A stretch of 64,000 bases of DNA from Limihaloglobus sulfuriphilus (GTDB lineage Bacteria > Planctomycetota > Phycisphaerae > Sedimentisphaerales > Sedimentisphaeraceae), in assembly GCF_001999965.1 (NCBI RefSeq), contig NZ_CP019646.1, forward strand, positions 3,286,001 to 3,350,000. The letters run 5' to 3'. The position numbers and the translations under genes are program-made. Each line of letters opens with the position of its first letter. The first letter of the stretch is position 1. The notes under the pieces are model-generated. The model was given only the letters and a program-made list of their open reading frames with translations, was not told the DNA's origin and ran no database searches. Of this stretch, positions 5,494-49,920 are shown one piece after another.

Positions 5494-7770
<2,277 letters not shown>

Positions 7771-8453: not shown

Positions 8454-11400
8454 ATGGAACTGGGTTTAGTTCATTTAAGCGATTTGCATTTTTCAAAAGA
8501 TTTTAATGCCAGTACACAACCGTTGGTCTCTGCCATCAAAGGAGTTAGTCATAATATTGACCACTGTTTAATTATCATATCTGGAGATATAGTAAACTGC
8601 GGGGATATTAACGGCTATGAATCTGCTAAGTTTTTTATTAACGAATTAGAGCAAAATTTATCACCTTTCTTTAAGAAGTTATATACATTTGCTGTACCTG
8701 GTAATCATGATTGTTTTTTAGAAAATGAAGGATCAATTAGATCGTTGATATTAAAATCTTTATCCTATAACAAAAAAATAGAGAAAGATCAACTTGACCA
8801 TTTGTTGATGTCTCAAAAACATTTTTTTGATTTTTGCAATGCCCTTTCGGGGTATAGTACTTTTGGCGGTTGGGATTCCTCATCACTTTCTTACTCTATT
8901 AAATATGATATTGGAGATTTTCAATTGGATCTTACACTATTAAATACCTCTTGGTGTTCTAATGTGGAAGATCAACCAGGTAAAATGTTTTTTCCATCAT
9001 CTTTTTTGGATACAAACTCTATTACAAGTGAAGAGATTGGAATGAGAGTACTTGCTCTTCATCATCCCTTTAACTGGATGCATCCTGATAATGCTAGAGA
9101 ACTTGATATCAAATATGCTAATTGCGATCTGATACTGGCAGGTCATGAACATGTACATAGAACATTAACAGTTTCTGACGGAGAATACTCCAGAAATATT
9201 ATAGATGGTGGAAAACTTTTTAATGATAACAGATATCACAGTTTCAATTTTATTTGCATTGATTTAACGAAAAAAACTGTACACAAATCAATTCAGTTTA
9301 AGTTTGATGATGATATTTTTAAAAAAGATAGAGACATTGAACTTCAGACTTCATTGAACACAAAAGGCAAGCTGGTATTTTCGCAAGAGTTTTCAAAGGT
9401 ACTTAAAGATGTAGGAACTGCATTCACACATCCACATAAAAAAGAAGTCCAATTCAATGACTTGTTTGTATTTCCTAGTATCAAAGCAAGTGATACATAT
9501 GAGTTTGATGGGTCTTCAAATGCAATTGAAACTTATGAATCATACTTAGATATACTGACTTCAGGGTGTAAACATGTTATTATAGGTGCAGAGAAATCCG
9601 GGAAAACCTCTTTAGCAAAATACCTTTGCTCTAAAATGATTGAAGAAGAAAAATATCCCTTGCTAGTAGAAGCTAAAAGCGCTTTTATGTGCACGCCTTC
9701 AAACCTTGAGGAATTAATATCTAAAGAAGTTAAAGATAAGTATGAAGGAGAATGTAGCCACGAAATGTTTATGCAATTGTCAAGAGATAAAGGTGTGCTA
9801 ATAATCGACTCATTTAATGGATATGAAGAGTCAAAAAACGAAGCGAGAATTGCACAGAACCTACAGCTCCTTGAAAAATATTTTTCAAACATCATTTTAC
9901 TGATGTCAGAAGAGAATCATTTGAGTCTTTCAAGTTCTAAATATTTAGAGAAAATTTTAATTGAATATACAAAGAGTAGGTTACTTCCGTTCAGTAGAAA
10001 GAAGAGGCACCTGTTAATTGAAAAGTGGTTTTCACTAAATGAAAACGGCTTTGAGAATGAAAGAAAGGACATTACCTTTCTCCGTCAAATCGAACATATG
10101 GTAGATGACTCTTTAGGCTTTGATCTGGTGCCAAGTTATCCACTATTCATACTAACTATAATCCAGACTTTTGAGGTCTCGAAACCAAACGACATACCCA
10201 CTTTTGCATCGTTTGGTCATATATACCAAGCTCTTATAACTAAGAGTTTATTTATTGCTACGGGTTCTCCTCAACCTATTGACTCTTACTATACTTACTT
10301 GTCAGAGTTAGCGTATCACATGTATAGCACTGCAAAAACAAAACTTATAATTGAGGAGTATGAAATATGGCATAAGAAATATAACGACAAGTATTTATCT
10401 GATTTAAGTTTTGACAGGTTGACAAGAAATTTAACAACTGCAAAAATTTTCGAGGAAGATTGTGGTCGAATTAGTTTTAAATACAAATATTTTTATTGCT
10501 ACTTTGTCGCAAGTTATTTTGCTAAACATGTAAATAGTAAAGAGATTCAGAATTCAATTAGCAAGATGGTTACAATGCTTTACAATGAGCAGGTTGCTAA
10601 TATAGTTGTCTTTTTATGTCACCTGACAGATAATATATATTTGTTAGAACAGATTTTTTTGGCAACAGACAAAATTTTTGAAACTCATGAAGAGTGTAAT
10701 TTGCAAGAGGATATTAAGTTTATCACAGACCCTTTAACTCCTTTGGCTATAGCAATACCTGAAGGTGACACGGATGAAAACTATCATGATACATTAGAAG
10801 TCCAGGATCAAATTGAAGATCAACTGCTTGATAAGCAATCGGATTACCCTACTGTAGAAGATTCTGCAAATCCAAGCGAAGATGTTGAAGCTTCTGATAT
10901 AAATGCATCATTTAAGTCGATTCAAATCCTGGGGCAAATATTAAAAAATTTCGAAGGTAAACTTGAAGGTAATTTAAAAGAAAAAGTTGCAAGGACTTGT
11001 TTTTCTCTTTCATTTAGGACAATATCCTCTTTTTTAACATTTGTTGATTCCAATAGAGAAGATTTAATCAGTGTTTTTCAAGATAAGATAAAAGAGAACT
11101 CTCCAGACCTTATGGCATCGACTATTTATCACAAAGCAAATGAGTCGTTATATGATTTATGTCAATTTATGATTTATGCTATAATCAAACACACATCAAA
11201 TTCAGTTGGAATACCTATTCTTAAGCCTTTATTTAGGAAAATATTTGATAAGTCAATTGATATTCCTCACCGTTTTTTGGAGCTTTCGATTAAGTTAGAC
11301 CACTATGGCAATTTTCCAATGGGTGAAGTTGAATCGATATTCAAAGATAAGAAGTTTTCGTACTTTCACAAAAGGCTTGCAAAGCAGTTTATCTGGATGA

Positions 11401-44217: not shown

Positions 44218-45570
44218 ATGGTCAGTGCAAGATGTTTCAATGCTTTAACCGCATTGGTATTAACGGTTTGCGCGTGTTCTTATGCAGAGTTTACGGTTTT
44301 TGACGTTTTTACCGGACAGGGGCCCCAGTCTCAGCCGTCAATAAGCGGCAGCACAGTGGTCTGGGTAGAGAAGTTCGGCGATTCATCCAGAATTTTCATA
44401 AAGGATGCTGATGACACGCTTAAAGCGCCCGATATGATAGGCCAGTTCCCCGGAGATGCGTACCCGGACTTCGACGGCAGGTTTGTCGTCTGGCACAGTG
44501 ACAATGACCCTGATCATGACATCTGGTGCTGCGACACTTCCGGCATTATAGCCGCTGATCCCTTCGCAGTTGCACCCAGTTCCAATGTTCAGAAGTTTCC
44601 GGCAGTCTCAAACGGCATAATTTCCTGGCAGGAATACGCTTATGTCTCCGAAATATGGAAGGCGAGTATCGTCGATGAGGTATTTGAAGCGAATAAGGTA
44701 TTGATTGAGACCGACCCCAACTGCTACGACCCTGATATCAGTGAAAGTTTGATAGCCTGGGAAGACGCCCGCGACGGGGCTGAAAACCGCGACATCCGCG
44801 GCTATGATTATACCGGCGGCGGCGAGATAATCATCTGCCAGGCAGAGGGAATCCAGGAAAACCCGGCGGTTGACGGGCGAAATGTTGTCTGGGCAGATTC
44901 ACGTGGCGGCAATTCGGACATATATCTGCGTGATATCGACGCGGCGTTGGAGATACCGGTTTGCATATCAGAGGGCGAGCAGAACAACCCCGCGATCTGC
45001 GGCCGCTGGATAGCGTGGCAGGACGCGCGAAACGGAACATATCAGATTTATCTATATGATATTAAAAGTTTTACGACATACCAGCTAAACCCCACGGCAC
45101 AGTCCCAGGAGATGCCCGCTTTGAGCCAAGAGCTGATATGCTGGCAGGAAAACGGCCTTATTAAAGCGGCAGTGCTGCCCGATGCCTCCGAGTTAGAGCT
45201 GACATCACCTGCCGGCGGTGAAACGCTGATTGCCGGATTTGAACATCTGGTTACCTGGGACAGCAGTCTGCCTTCGGGGCATACCATAGATATCGAATAT
45301 TCAGACGACCTCGGGCTTACCTGGCACCGTATAGCCTCGTCTGTGGAAGATACAGGCCAGTGGTTTTGGCAGGATATACCCTCCAGCGGCGGCGAAAAAA
45401 GGATTTTGCGTGTAATTGACGCTGATTCCGATTACAATGCTGACGCAGGCGGTTTGTTTGACGTGTCGGATTGTGACCCGTCTCTGACCGCCGACGCTAA
45501 CGGCGACTGTGTAGTAGATTTAGCTGACTTCTCGGAGCTTGCCGTTCAATGGCAGCAGAAAGGGTACTGA
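44218..45570 (+). CDS. Secreted TolB-like beta-propeller protein with C-terminal dockerin repeat
   Basis: 450 aa, AGGAGG 7 bp before the ATG. A signal peptide is followed by at least five propeller blades, each with a W..D/G..IYL pattern (for example IAWEDARDGAENRDIRGYD, VVWADSRGGNSDIYLRDID, IAWQDARNGTYQIYLYDI). Residues about 320-415 resemble a Ser/Thr-rich anchored (Kre9-like) sandwich (SPAGGETLIAGFEHLVTWDS). The end, ADANGDCVVDLADFSELAVQW, is one dockerin-type loop. The ligand is unknown. Confidence 0.8.
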   Translation: MVSARCFNALTALVLTVCACSYAEFTVFDVFTGQGPQSQPSISGSTVVWVEKFGDSSRIFIKDADDTLKAPDMIGQFPGDAYPDFDGRFVVWHSDNDPDHDIWCCDTSGIIAADPFAVAPSSNVQKFPAVSNGIISWQEYAYVSEIWKASIVDEVFEANKVLIETDPNCYDPDISESLIAWEDARDGAENRDIRGYDYTGGGEIIICQAEGIQENPAVDGRNVVWADSRGGNSDIYLRDIDAALEIPVCISEGEQNNPAICGRWIAWQDARNGTYQIYLYDIKSFTTYQLNPTAQSQEMPALSQELICWQENGLIKAAVLPDASELELTSPAGGETLIAGFEHLVTWDSSLPSGHTIDIEYSDDLGLTWHRIASSVEDTGQWFWQDIPSSGGEKRILRVIDADSDYNADAGGLFDVSDCDPSLTADANGDCVVDLADFSELAVQWQQKGY

Positions 45571-45636: not shown

Positions 45637-46533
45637 TTGAAAAAAAACGGATATGAGTTGTTAAAGCTCACAAGGCCGCGGCATTGGATAAAGAATTTTG
45701 TAGTTCTGCTGCCCTTGTTTTTCAGCTTCAGTTTTACCAGCCCCGCGGCATGGGCGCAGGCTCTGAGCTGCGCGATTGTTTTTTGTCTGGCATCATCAAT
45801 CGTTTACATTGTCAACGATATAGAAGACCGTGACAGGGATTGCCATCACCCTGTAAAGAAGAACCGGCCAATTGCTTCCGGAGCGGTAAGCATTAAAGAG
45901 GCTCTTGCACTGCTGGTTGTCCTGGCTGTTATAACAGTATTGCTCTCGCTGAGCCTGGATTTGGCGACTTTTGTTATAATACTGATGTATCTTCTTTTGC
46001 AGGCGGCATATACGTTTTTTCTCAAAAAACACGCCCTGCTCGATGTTACCTGCATATCGCTGGGGTTTGTGCTTCGGGCGGTTGCCGGAGCCATTGCGAT
46101 AGACGTTTATATAAGCCACTGGCTCTTTATCTGCATGTTCACGCTGTTTCTGTTTATGGGTTTCTGCAAGCGGTACAACGAAATCGCCGTCATAGGCAGC
46201 AATGACCAGGCGCTTCTGCACCGGCAGGCGCTGAATTCCTATGACCCGGCAGTCCTGACGCATTTGATAACACTGGCGGCATCGGTGTTTTTGATATCGT
46301 TTCTGCTCTACAGCACCAGCCCGGAAACTATTGAGCGGTTTGGCGGCGACTACATGGTCTATACCTTTCCGCTGGTTATTATAGCAGTTGGGCGCTTTGC
46401 CATGCTTTCGATACGCGGCACATACAACGACCCCGTAGAGCTGATATACAAAGACATCCTGTTTGCCGGCACATGCGCAGCCTGGAGTGTTTCGATTTTG
46501 ATAATCCTGCTGCTTAAACAAGGTGTTTTTTAG
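45637..46533 (+). CDS. UbiA-family prenyltransferase, decaprenyl-phosphate phosphoribosyltransferase-like
   Basis: 298 aa, TTG start at 45637 with GGAGA 7 bp upstream. Nine or so membrane segments surround the aspartate-rich motif NDIEDRDRDCHHPVKKNRPIASG. The opening LLKLTRPRHWIKNFVVLLPLFF is typical of the DPPR synthase branch, which moves phosphoribose onto a polyprenyl phosphate to make a ribose/arabinose donor. In mycobacteria this feeds arabinogalactan; here it could supply pentose for a surface glycan. It lies in a string with two membrane or secreted glycan-type genes. Confidence 0.82.
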   Translation: MKKNGYELLKLTRPRHWIKNFVVLLPLFFSFSFTSPAAWAQALSCAIVFCLASSIVYIVNDIEDRDRDCHHPVKKNRPIASGAVSIKEALALLVVLAVITVLLSLSLDLATFVIILMYLLLQAAYTFFLKKHALLDVTCISLGFVLRAVAGAIAIDVYISHWLFICMFTLFLFMGFCKRYNEIAVIGSNDQALLHRQALNSYDPAVLTHLITLAASVFLISFLLYSTSPETIERFGGDYMVYTFPLVIIAVGRFAMLSIRGTYNDPVELIYKDILFAGTCAAWSVSILIILLLKQGVF

Positions 46534-46545
46534 GAGAGCAGTAAA

Positions 46546-48432
46546 ATGCTTCGCAAAATTATCATGGTTACTCTGGCTTTGTCAGCTGCGGCAGTTTCTG
46601 CTGAAACCATCACACGTTCTGATGTTATTGACAGAATTGAGGGTATGTGGTTGGGTCAGATAGTTGCAAACATGGCAGGCCGAGCCACGGAAGGGAAGTA
46701 CAGCGGTTCTTATCCAAATCCCGCTGAAAGTGTTCCCTGGGTTTTGAAGGGGCCGGAAGAATCCTGGCCGGCAGACGATGATACTGATATAGAGTACATC
46801 GCACTTGATACGCTTGAGACATGCGGTATTAACCCTTCTGCCGGTCAGCTGGCATCTCAATGGCTTGACCATATCACAAGTTCCGGCATATACATCTCAA
46901 ACCGTCAGGCATGGTATCTTATGGGGGATGGTTTTCTTCCGCCGGAAACCGGCAGCCGCAATTACAATATGCACTGGTACTCGATAGACTGCCAGATAAC
47001 AAATGAAATCATCGGTGCAATAAATCCGGGTTTAGCTCAACATGCAATAGAAACAACCCGCAAATTTGCACTGATGTCTAATGAAGGTTTTCCGGTTCAC
47101 GCGGCTCAGTTTTACAGCTGCATGTACTCCAATGCTTATTTCCAATCGGACATACGAACTCTGATTGATGAGGCTCTTGAGATAATTCCTCATACAAGCC
47201 GCAGTTATCAGGTTGTTCAGGATGTTTTGACCTGGTACGATGAAGATATGCTTGACGGTACACCCGATTGGAGGTCTCTGAGGCAAAAGCTGTATGATTA
47301 TTACGGCAGCGGCCCTTATGCGATGGGACGATATTATAACTGGATTGAATCAACAGTAAATCTCGGGGCGACTGTTATGTCTCTTCTGTATGGCGGCGGA
47401 GATTATAAAGAGACTGTTCAGATAGGGATTCTGGCCGGCTGGGATTGCGATTGCAACCCCGCAACTGCCGGCGGAATTATAGGAATAATCAACGGCAGAA
47501 GCGGCCTGCCCCAAGACCTGTTCGGGCCGGATGTTTGCAGCAATGTTTATTCACAGACATACCGCGTTAATCTTCCGCTATCGGAAACAATTGAAAGCAT
47601 AGCTAACAGAGCGGCTGATATTGCTGAAATCAATATTGTTGCTAACGGCGGAACAGTTACGGTTGCCGAAGATGATTATATTTATGATATACCGCTTCAG
47701 AACTCACTTTCGGGTGATTTTCCCGTTTCTCAGTCTGACGGGCCAAAAGGGCTTGTCGCAGAAGCCTTGACAGAAGGAATAGATGTTTCGCCAGACGCAG
47801 CGAAAAATAACCAGAATCCGGATAATGACCGGTACAATTTGAATTCCATAATTGACGGTGTGGCAACTAATGTACATAACGGGGTAAGGCCCTACTGGAG
47901 CTATGGGAGTGAGGTTGACCGCGACTGGTACAGCCTGAACTTTTCGCAGCCTGTAATCATAAATTCAGTCACCTTTTATGAAGGAGATATTGTATGGGGC
48001 GGCATAAATACCTATGTTGCATCTGACTCTTCACGCGGCGGTTATTTTGAGGATTTAACAGTTGAGTTTCTTGATGATGGGCAATATGTCGAGGTGTCCG
48101 GCCTTATCCAGTCTGAACCGCTCATTCGGACAAAGATGTACCAGATAATCCGCTTTGACTTTGATTCTGTAATTACATCTTCAGTAAGGATTATAGGTAC
48201 CGCAGGAGGCAGTCAGAAATATACAACAATACTCGAATTGGAGGCGGGCGGTTCTGTCGATACGTTTTACGGTGATTTTGATAAAAGCGGATCAGTCGAT
48301 AATCTTGATTTTGCTGTTCTTGCCCTGAACTGGGGCTATGGCGGTTCTGCCGCAGTTGATTACAACGATGACGGTTTTATTGACAGCTTTGAGTTAATTG
48401 TTTTTGCAGAAAACTGGATGTCAACGCGATAG
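46546..48432 (+). CDS. Secreted ADP-ribosylglycohydrolase-like protein with F5/8-type and dockerin domains
   Basis: 628 aa. A signal peptide (KIIMVTLALSAAAVSA) precedes an ADP-ribosylglycohydrolase fold: RIEGMWLGQIVANMAGRATEG, the metal-binding DDDTDIEY and GWDCDCNPATAGGIIGIINGR. Residues about 400-560 resemble an F5/8 type C (discoidin) domain (WYSLNFSQPVIINSVTFYEGD). The C-terminus has two dockerin-type loops (DFDKSGSVDNLDFAVLALNW and DYNDDGFIDSFELIVFAENW). The usual family is cytosolic and removes ADP-ribose from proteins; an exported, surface-binding form suggests another glycosidic substrate. The gene begins 12 bp after the prenyltransferase stop. Confidence 0.8.
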   Translation: MLRKIIMVTLALSAAAVSAETITRSDVIDRIEGMWLGQIVANMAGRATEGKYSGSYPNPAESVPWVLKGPEESWPADDDTDIEYIALDTLETCGINPSAGQLASQWLDHITSSGIYISNRQAWYLMGDGFLPPETGSRNYNMHWYSIDCQITNEIIGAINPGLAQHAIETTRKFALMSNEGFPVHAAQFYSCMYSNAYFQSDIRTLIDEALEIIPHTSRSYQVVQDVLTWYDEDMLDGTPDWRSLRQKLYDYYGSGPYAMGRYYNWIESTVNLGATVMSLLYGGGDYKETVQIGILAGWDCDCNPATAGGIIGIINGRSGLPQDLFGPDVCSNVYSQTYRVNLPLSETIESIANRAADIAEINIVANGGTVTVAEDDYIYDIPLQNSLSGDFPVSQSDGPKGLVAEALTEGIDVSPDAAKNNQNPDNDRYNLNSIIDGVATNVHNGVRPYWSYGSEVDRDWYSLNFSQPVIINSVTFYEGDIVWGGINTYVASDSSRGGYFEDLTVEFLDDGQYVEVSGLIQSEPLIRTKMYQIIRFDFDSVITSSVRIIGTAGGSQKYTTILELEAGGSVDTFYGDFDKSGSVDNLDFAVLALNWGYGGSAAVDYNDDGFIDSFELIVFAENWMSTR

Positions 48433-48438
48433 GAAATT

Positions 48439-49920
48439 ATGAATAAACATATGAAGTACTGGCTTGCCGTTTTTGTGGTTTTTCTCGGCATTTATATTTA
48501 CACACTTGCTCCTGACGTTGTCTGGCAGGATCAGGGAGATTATCAGTACAGAAGCGCTGTGAACGAATATGAGTTCCCCGGAGATGTCGTACGGGCTCAC
48601 CCTCTTTATGTTGTTATAGCCCATGCTGTGGGTCGTTTAACTCCTATGAGTTATGCTTATGCGGCCAATTTTACCAGTGCCTTTTTTGCCGCCATAAGCG
48701 TAGCAAATGTTTTTGTCATTGTATATTTTCTAACCGGCCGGAGCCTTGCCGGAATTCTTGCCGCGGGTCTTTACGGTCTGGCGCATACAACCTGGTTTAA
48801 TGCTGTTCAGGCTCAGACATACAGTATGTCAGCAGCGTGCCTAAGTCTGTCTTATCTTTTGTTTATTATGTACCGCAGATACCCCAGATGTGTTTATCTG
48901 CTGCTGATTGGTTTTGTTTCAGGGCTTGGCATGAGTACGCATATCATGAGCCAGATAGGCTTTGCGGTAATCTTCTGCTCTCTGTTTTATATGATGTGCA
49001 AAGGGCCTCTGCCCTGGAAACACCTTCTCTGGCTGGCTCTGCTTTGGTTTGCCGGTGCTTTTATGCTCTGGCATGTAATGTGGCTGGAGTTTGAGCGTAC
49101 CGGAGAGCTGTTTGCAACTATCGCCTCGGCAGTGTGGGGTAAATGGGGCGGGGCGGTGTTCAATTTCGGACGTGTGTTTCATCTGGCTAAACAGAGCTTT
49201 ATGTTTTTTGTGCTGAATTTTCCAACGCCGCTGGTGCTCCTGGCAGTGCTTGGCGTTGTGCGTGCTAAAGGTATTTTGAAAGACAACGTGATTTTCTGGT
49301 CGCTGTTGGTCTCGCTGGGGCTCTATGTTCTCTTTGCTTTTCGTTATGATATTCCAAATCAGAATAACTTTTTCCTGCCGGCTTATATGCTTGTTGCTAT
49401 ATACGCCGGTCTTGGACTTTCACGGCTGTTTAAGAGGGACACAGTTCTTCTATCGGCGGCAATCATGACACTGTTTGTTCTGGAGATATTAACCTATCCG
49501 GCAATATCGCACATTGCCAGATCACGCCAGATGAGTATCGGCACCCGCCGCACAGTTCCATACCGTGATGAATACAGTTATTACCTGATTCCATGGCAGC
49601 AGAACCAGACGGGGCCGCGGCAGTTGTTTACAGAGCTTTTTGATATCCTGCCCAAAGAAGCGGTTCTGCTGGTTGATTCTACGGTTTATGACCCGCTGAT
49701 GTATGTAATAGCGGCAGAAAATCCCCGTCCCGATATCTTTGTATATAAGCCGTATGCCGCCCCCGACATTATTGAGGTGCACCGGCGTATGGGCTGCCGG
49801 TTTTATGTTGTGAGCAAACACCCTGCCTATATTCCCGATTGGGTTGAGCCGGACGAGCTCGCAGCGGTGGAGCTGCCGGGAGGAGCTCAAATCTACGAGA
49901 TAATAATAGATGAATCCTGA
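48439..49920 (+). CDS. DUF2723-family polytopic membrane protein (glycosyltransferase-like)
   Basis: 493 aa with about ten hydrophobic helices. The N-terminus IYIYTLAPDVVWQDQGDYQYRSAVNEYEFPGDVVRAHPLYVVI carries the acidic first-loop motif of DUF2723, a GT-C-like family related to protein O-mannosyltransferases. It may move a lipid-linked sugar to an exported acceptor. AGGAAA precedes the ATG, 6 bp after the upstream stop, and its end overlaps tilS by 11 bp, so the run from 45.6 to 51.3 kb is probably one operon. Confidence 0.75.
   Translation: MNKHMKYWLAVFVVFLGIYIYTLAPDVVWQDQGDYQYRSAVNEYEFPGDVVRAHPLYVVIAHAVGRLTPMSYAYAANFTSAFFAAISVANVFVIVYFLTGRSLAGILAAGLYGLAHTTWFNAVQAQTYSMSAACLSLSYLLFIMYRRYPRCVYLLLIGFVSGLGMSTHIMSQIGFAVIFCSLFYMMCKGPLPWKHLLWLALLWFAGAFMLWHVMWLEFERTGELFATIASAVWGKWGGAVFNFGRVFHLAKQSFMFFVLNFPTPLVLLAVLGVVRAKGILKDNVIFWSLLVSLGLYVLFAFRYDIPNQNNFFLPAYMLVAIYAGLGLSRLFKRDTVLLSAAIMTLFVLEILTYPAISHIARSRQMSIGTRRTVPYRDEYSYYLIPWQQNQTGPRQLFTELFDILPKEAVLLVDSTVYDPLMYVIAAENPRPDIFVYKPYAAPDIIEVHRRMGCRFYVVSKHPAYIPDWVEPDELAAVELPGGAQIYEIIIDES

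Follow-up and report, generated by a model that had tools for sequence, protein, structure and literature searches.

The known chemistry of the ADP-ribosylglycohydrolase (ADPRH or ARH) fold is ribofuranosidic, and in ARH3, which shares this fold with ARH1 and DraG, Thr76 is a metal ligand. An ADPRH-family enzyme, RusGH, is reportedly part of a ribose-utilization locus, as Glowacki and colleagues are said to have described in 2020. This locus, Rus, comprises BT2803-2809 of Bacteroides thetaiotaomicron and is described in two papers (PMC12596196, PMC10434189), the latter of which also names DUF4969 with Rus genes. For ARH3, one study reports severely reduced activity for the E41A, T76R, D77N, D78N, D34G, F143L, S148A and G150E mutants and coordination of MgII by Thr317 (PMC8319183), and another reports loss of activity for mutants of D77, D78, G115, S148, Y149, H182, D314 and T317 (PMC5727137). 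A literature search whose coverage excludes most subscription journals recognized no paper on exported glycosidases of the ADPRH fold. Rus-type ribose scavenging is in print, and the theme is therefore known; new here are a rebuilt pocket, its breadth, and a glycan-tethered planctomycete branch.

How does the present locus compare with these systems? The window, a stretch of 64,000 nucleotides (positions 3286001-3350000 of the 3.87-Mb single-contig genome of Limihaloglobus sulfuriphilus), carries at 46546..48432 (+) an ATG-started open reading frame for a 628-aa protein of the ADP-ribosylglycohydrolase fold. Like ARH3, DraG, and ARH1, it combines this fold with the catalytic Glu and with equivalents of D77-D78 and D314/D316. 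Unlike them, the family to which it belongs is probably exported, mostly dispenses with the NGxxMR segment, and has Asn at the position of Asp34 of ARH3, Cys or Asn at that of Thr317, and an Asp or a shifted residue at that of Thr76; the 628-aa protein further adds a module of glycan-binding fold and a dockerin-like one. The likeness to Rus lies in cousin loci, which carry ribokinase, a DMT/GRP-type transporter and SusC/SusD and, in Parabacteroides, a nucleoside hydrolase as well, whereas the window locus has no match to ribokinase, transporter or SusC/SusD and its clade is a separate one. We read the protein as a secreted metal-dependent pentofuranosidase, its sugar most likely ribofuranose, that would act on extracellular nucleotide, glycoconjugate or polysaccharide material, a reading to which we give a probability of about 0.45.

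Gene and domain organization

The Pfam profile PF03747 (ADP_ribosyl_GH) matches residues 33-324 (3e-32, 112.9 bits against a cut-off of 26.2). No family was matched in an NCBIfam search of the 628-aa protein, and a single-sequence search of the PDB returned two chains only, both by way of the dockerin-like tail. A phage origin of the gene was rejected, a phage collection having given no match. An AlphaFold2 model was built from 67 sequences (mean pLDDT 92.3, pTM 0.90), L062, L063, L064, L074, L084, L109, and L121 having been left out for stops, X, frame breaks or fragmentation, along with nine further rows. The best matches among 993 aligned chains are to ARH3 (Z 31.9, rmsd 2.6 A, 299 residues of 22-364; 6g1p), with Z values of 27.6 for DraG and 27.2 for ARH1. 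The fold assigned from the letters alone is borne out by the profile and by the confident model. By hhalign, the secreted family aligns to 13 canonical planctomycete ARH-type proteins with a probability of 98.5 (E 1.7e-15), and one of these 13, compared with the PDB, aligns to ARH3 at 4e-27.

Read by eye, residues 1-19 (MLRKIIMVTLALSAAAVSA; 46546..46602, +) form a signal-peptide-like N-terminus, as previously annotated, and export of the protein is predicted from it. The catalytic ARH-fold domain, supported by the match to 6g1p and by hhalign, spans residues 22-366 (46609..47643, +). It is followed by an F5/8-type (CBM32-like) module of galactose-binding fold at residues 401-572 (47746..48261, +). 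Although its Pfam score falls under the cut-off (F5_F8_type_C, 4.4e-5, 24 bits against 28.2), these residues form a galactose-binding-like beta-sandwich in the confident model and match modules of BgaA (4cua, Z 15.9) and CBM32-5 of the C. perfringens GH89 enzyme (4a41, Z 14.2); the discoidin-like part noted earlier is real, and its binding of a glycan is predicted.

The last module, a dockerin-like tail at residues 575-628 (48268..48429, +), is a weaker match. In contrast to a cellulosome-type dockerin protein, it scores under the Dockerin_1 cut-off (E 0.022, 15.4 bits against 22.9), and phmmer aligns it to a dockerin-bearing PDB chain at 0.019. The same genome holds 26 dockerin matches at E<=1e-3 and two cohesin matches over the cut-off within one 2069-aa frame (G000:C1:1003495-1004697; L173, L174), which makes a dockerin-like tail plausible. 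From these matches, a cellulosome-like system in this planctomycete is possible.

The rebuilt active site

The 628-aa protein retains the catalytic Glu and the four metal-site Asp of the fold. In alignments, Glu49 (46690..46692, +) is the equivalent of the catalytic Glu41 of ARH3. Within DDDTD (residues 77-81; 46774..46788, +), D78-D79 correspond to D77-D78 of ARH3; in DCDC (residues 300-303; 47443..47454, +), which lies inside the GWDCDCN motif at residues 298-304, D300 and D302 correspond to D314 and D316.

Conservation was counted over 88 aligned rows, made up of 78 loci and 10 earlier ones. Either DDDTD[IF]E[YWF] or G[MFG][WL][LI]GQ..[GA]N served as the search pattern for the 78, a choice that itself accounts for some of the conservation of DDDTD and of part of the first motif, whereas E49, N119, Q150, E154, D300, and D302 are absent from the patterns. 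Of the rows that have a residue at position 49, 86/86 show Glu. D77, D78, D79, and T80 are kept in 87/87 rows (L030 has X across this region), as is D302; D300 is kept in 86, with one X. N119, Q150, and E154 are invariant (87/87). A second sample, gathered by similarity to the whole domain, takes in a group that has QDD instead of DDD and counts a paralog from the same genome among its members; here Glu is present in all 29 of the 31 rows that cover the position and D-x-D in 31/31. The outcome named beforehand as one that would overturn the annotation, that most secreted homologs lack the catalytic residues, was therefore not seen: the Glu and Asp are kept in every homolog that covers them.

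What has changed is the surrounding pocket. Judged from sequence, with the numbering of the segment transferred from ARH3, canonical Ser148-Tyr149-Gly150 would sit in the stretch GS(Y/F)GNGxxMR. The pattern NGxxMR, sought anywhere in residues 20-420, occurs in 13/13 canonical proteins and in 4/86 secreted ones, the fragmentary L064 having been dropped from all pattern counts. Where the canonical proteins have this adenosine-holding segment, the secreted family carries a segment of its own at residues 147-154 (46984..47007, +), with I147 and the invariant Q150 and E154. The pattern GxDxD[TS] is likewise found in 13/13 canonical and 2/86 secreted proteins, against none and 85/86 for GxDxD[NC]; [AG]DxxG is found in 13/13 and, anywhere in the sequence, 19/86, against none and 85/86 for [AG]NxxG. 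At the position of Thr317, the 628-aa protein has C303 and the family Cys or Asn; at that of Thr76, one alignment places Asp77 and another places Ala76 with Asp77 inserted, in neither case a Thr. The two motifs described as kept are accordingly kept in their acids and altered at the Thr317 position and probably at that of Thr76. With the acids kept, and NGxxMR and Thr317 replaced, the metal-binding acids stay while the parts that hold ADP go.

Ribose genes around cousin loci

Neighborhoods were counted over 78 named loci, whatever the length of the flanks, with blastp 1e-10 as the ribokinase threshold. All counts are lower bounds because the ORF caller keeps the longest frames and misses some GC-rich genes; in several GC-rich loci it missed the ADPRH gene itself. 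A ribokinase-like gene is present in at least 14 of the 78 loci and a DMT/GRP-type (pentose-type) transporter in at least 13, 12 of them alongside ribokinase; SusC is found in at least 11, SusD in at least 9 and a related esterase in at least 9. The cousins with ribokinase, pentose-type transporter or nucleoside hydrolase neighbors belong to several phyla. Fifteen further loci (L034-L048) added one transporter and no ribokinase. By our estimate, chance would place a ribokinase in about one or fewer of 78 such loci (<=21 kb), if genomes of 2-5.6 Mb hold one or two strong ribokinases each. Three of the 14 kinases were tested (L078, L110, L130), and all three exceed the NCBIfam ribokinase cut-off. 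For 11 of the 14 loci, with positions matched to locus ranges by hand, the neighbor was compared with the rest of its genome: in 10/10 searchable genomes, picked for having a ribokinase neighbor, it is the best ribokinase match, and the runners-up score far lower in all but G062, where another strong match exists.

Plasmids show the same association. Six regions were examined among 34 matching records, and four have a gene annotated as ribokinase near ADPRH: a Parabacteroides distasonis plasmid combines rbsK, ADPRH, a nucleoside hydrolase and a GRP sugar transporter, a Flammeovirga plasmid has the order rbsK-transporter-ADPRH, and the plasmids of Mycolicibacterium arabiense and Deinococcus aetherius carry the ribokinase-labelled gene close by. 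The regions from Rhizobium ACO-34A and Cnuibacter have no ribokinase near ADPRH. Of two Chloroflexota loci, L122 has a nucleoside hydrolase neighbor and L127 a PfkB kinase that most resembles fructoselysine kinase. Fusions occur in the QDD group, where one polypeptide joins IU_nuc_hydro to ADPRH (L042:7343-9946, +; 1.2e-29 and 3.4e-28) and another a GH43/GH32N-like propeller to ADPRH (L043:8466-11384, -). DUF4969 was found in none of five Bacteroidota genomes with a ribokinase-linked ADPRH and so provides no link between those loci and the B. thetaiotaomicron protein.

Other cousins lie beside genes for a GH29-type alpha-L-fucosidase and a sulfatase (L080), a GH16 enzyme (L114) or a GH3 enzyme (L115), so the sugar may differ among them. 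An extracellular glycosidic substrate, the first of two substrates proposed in the initial annotation, finds support in the signal-peptide-like start, the CBM32-like module, the polysaccharide and ribose loci, and the fusions to nucleoside hydrolase and GH43-like domains.

Phylogeny and ribose genes of the host genome

A tree was built from 95 rows; L062-L064, any row containing stops or X, and any with fewer than 200 domain residues were excluded. The 12 labelled rows of the window clade lie on one side of a branch that separates them from the other labelled groups (99/96), and two unlabelled planctomycete rows fall among them. Ribokinase-linked rows form two lineages (of 12 and 1) within a separate 51-row clade, set apart from each other by unlabelled rows. 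A single clade (100/100) unites the QDD group with its Rus-locus paralogs. Because the window clade stands apart from the ribokinase-linked lineages, the case for ribose comes from cousins that are about 30% identical.

The host's own best ribokinase (356.6 bits, cut-off 299.65) adjoins a nucleoside hydrolase gene at about 2.005 Mb, some 1.3 Mb from the ADPRH gene, and the genome can therefore, in principle, use free ribose. A second nucleoside hydrolase, at 3.2746 Mb (L142:8496-9950, +), has a signal-peptide-like start and is joined to an FmdE domain.

Discussion

Why would an ADP-ribosylglycohydrolase be sent out of the cell? The kept acids, the replaced ADP-gripping residues, and the ribose-uptake genes of the cousins together suggest that it probably cuts ribose-like sugars outside. 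The protein would be exported and would cleave a pentofuranose glycosidic bond with an ARH-type metal center. Through its CBM32-like module it would stay attached to a glycan, and its dockerin-like tail may anchor it to a cohesin protein that the same cell makes. A predicted exported ARH-fold glycosidase is well supported. Ribose or another pentofuranose is the likely sugar for the cousins and a plausible one for the 628-aa protein, whose clade would have to share their substrate class; the window clade is without ribokinase and separate in the tree, the fusions lie in the more distant QDD group, and the host's own ribokinase is far away.

More tentatively, the reading may be widened: exported proteins of the DDDTD type could be a class of uncatalogued metal-dependent furanosidases, found in at least nine bacterial phyla among the records examined, in which an eraser fold has been rebuilt to cleave the bonds of ribofuranosyl or arabinofuranosyl groups, whether in free nucleotides or in glycans. 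Its planctomycete branch would be glycan-tethered, and the targets there may be envelope sugars produced by the UbiA and GT-C enzymes of the same gene run. We hold this wider version to be possible rather than probable. If these proteins are furanosidases, many entries named "ADP-ribosylglycohydrolase family protein" are misread as ADP-ribosylation machinery and belong to nutrient scavenging; they would form a testable set of enzymes for freeing ribose from nucleotides and glycans in the environment, and would illustrate how a glycoside hydrolase and an eraser fold for protein modifications interconvert.

Could the sugar be one other than ribose? A glycosidase that attacks polysaccharides at some other sugar, for example in a glycan with fucose, galactose or arabinose, and leaves ribose to the cousins would suit the CBM32-like module, the glycoside hydrolase and sulfatase genes beside L080, L114, and L115, and the surroundings of the paralog in the same genome, where an esterase gene lies upstream and genes judged by eye to be rhamnosidase-like and GH5-like are close. 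It would also suit the 15 window-like loci: their called ORFs include no ribokinase match, at least seven of the loci have an FKP (fucose-salvage-type) gene and at least eight have genes of GDP-mannose-dehydratase/epimerase type, several of these loci having short flanks. Housekeeping genes that recur in those flanks (folE-like and parB-like, named by eye) indicate, however, that part of the shared order is common descent. FKP has no match in the host genome, where fucose salvage was accordingly rejected, and the reactions known for the fold are on ribofuranosidic bonds. We regard a non-ribose substrate as doubtful, if a serious competitor.

The nearest neighbors raise a further option, the trimming of envelope glycans, in which UbiA would make a lipid-linked phosphoribose, a GT-C enzyme would transfer the sugar outside, and the ADPRH-fold enzyme would edit the product. 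A UbiA-type gene resembling decaprenyl-phosphate phosphoribosyltransferase (45637..46533, +; NF008977, 256.4 bits, above the equivalog cut-off of 234) ends 12 bp upstream of the ADPRH gene, and a gene for a TMEM260-like GT-C membrane glycosyltransferase (48439..49920, +; PF11028, 1.2e-9) begins 6 bp downstream, all three on one strand. A related GT-C is present in at least three of the 15 window-like loci, within the flanks examined, and UbiA and GT-C are adjacent in G025. Against this, UbiA is located elsewhere in the four other genomes with an ortholog and has no match among the called ORFs of 93 other loci, and the run also holds tilS (named by eye). The arrangement is thus not conserved in relatives and, as a three-gene operon, was rejected; it survives only as a rival. 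A role in lipid-linked arabinose was rejected as well, the genome having no ALO/DprE1-type match. Envelope trimming is, on balance, rather unlikely. An exported eraser of ADP-ribosylation on host or environmental macromolecules, in the manner of ARH1, ARH3 or DraG, would account for the fold in common with ARH3 and the identical acidic residues; yet throughout the family a different segment stands where ARH3 carries Ser148, Tyr149, and Gly150, the residue at the Thr317 position has been exchanged too, probably along with that at Thr76, and ARH3 mutated at Ser148 or Thr317 lost its activity (PMC5727137). This role is unlikely, and the host-derived ADP-ribose bond offered in the initial annotation as a second substrate is not supported, given the replacement of the adenosine-holding segment. 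The replacements around the site, and the occurrence of some ARH-fold chains in large assemblies (8xqw, 8xks, 6sga), might instead speak for a non-catalytic binding protein, but strict conservation of the Glu and Asp in every covering homolog makes this very unlikely.

Additional observations

Upstream in the window, 66 bp before the UbiA-type gene and on the same strand, positions 44218-45570 encode a beta-propeller repeat protein (TIGR04275, 2e-44) with, by eye, a dockerin-like tail. The host genome has a third PF03747 match (G000:C1:1153314-1153562; L003) that covers only a C-terminal part of the profile (215-286) and has DND replacing DCD. Among the relatives, the ADPRH ortholog of G004 is split into two reading frames (L035:8062-10300, -). 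In L036, two direct copies of a 261-bp piece of an ABC-ATPase gene, 91% identical to each other (6501-6761 and 8963-9223), flank the ortholog, a pattern that looks as if the ADPRH gene had been inserted there.
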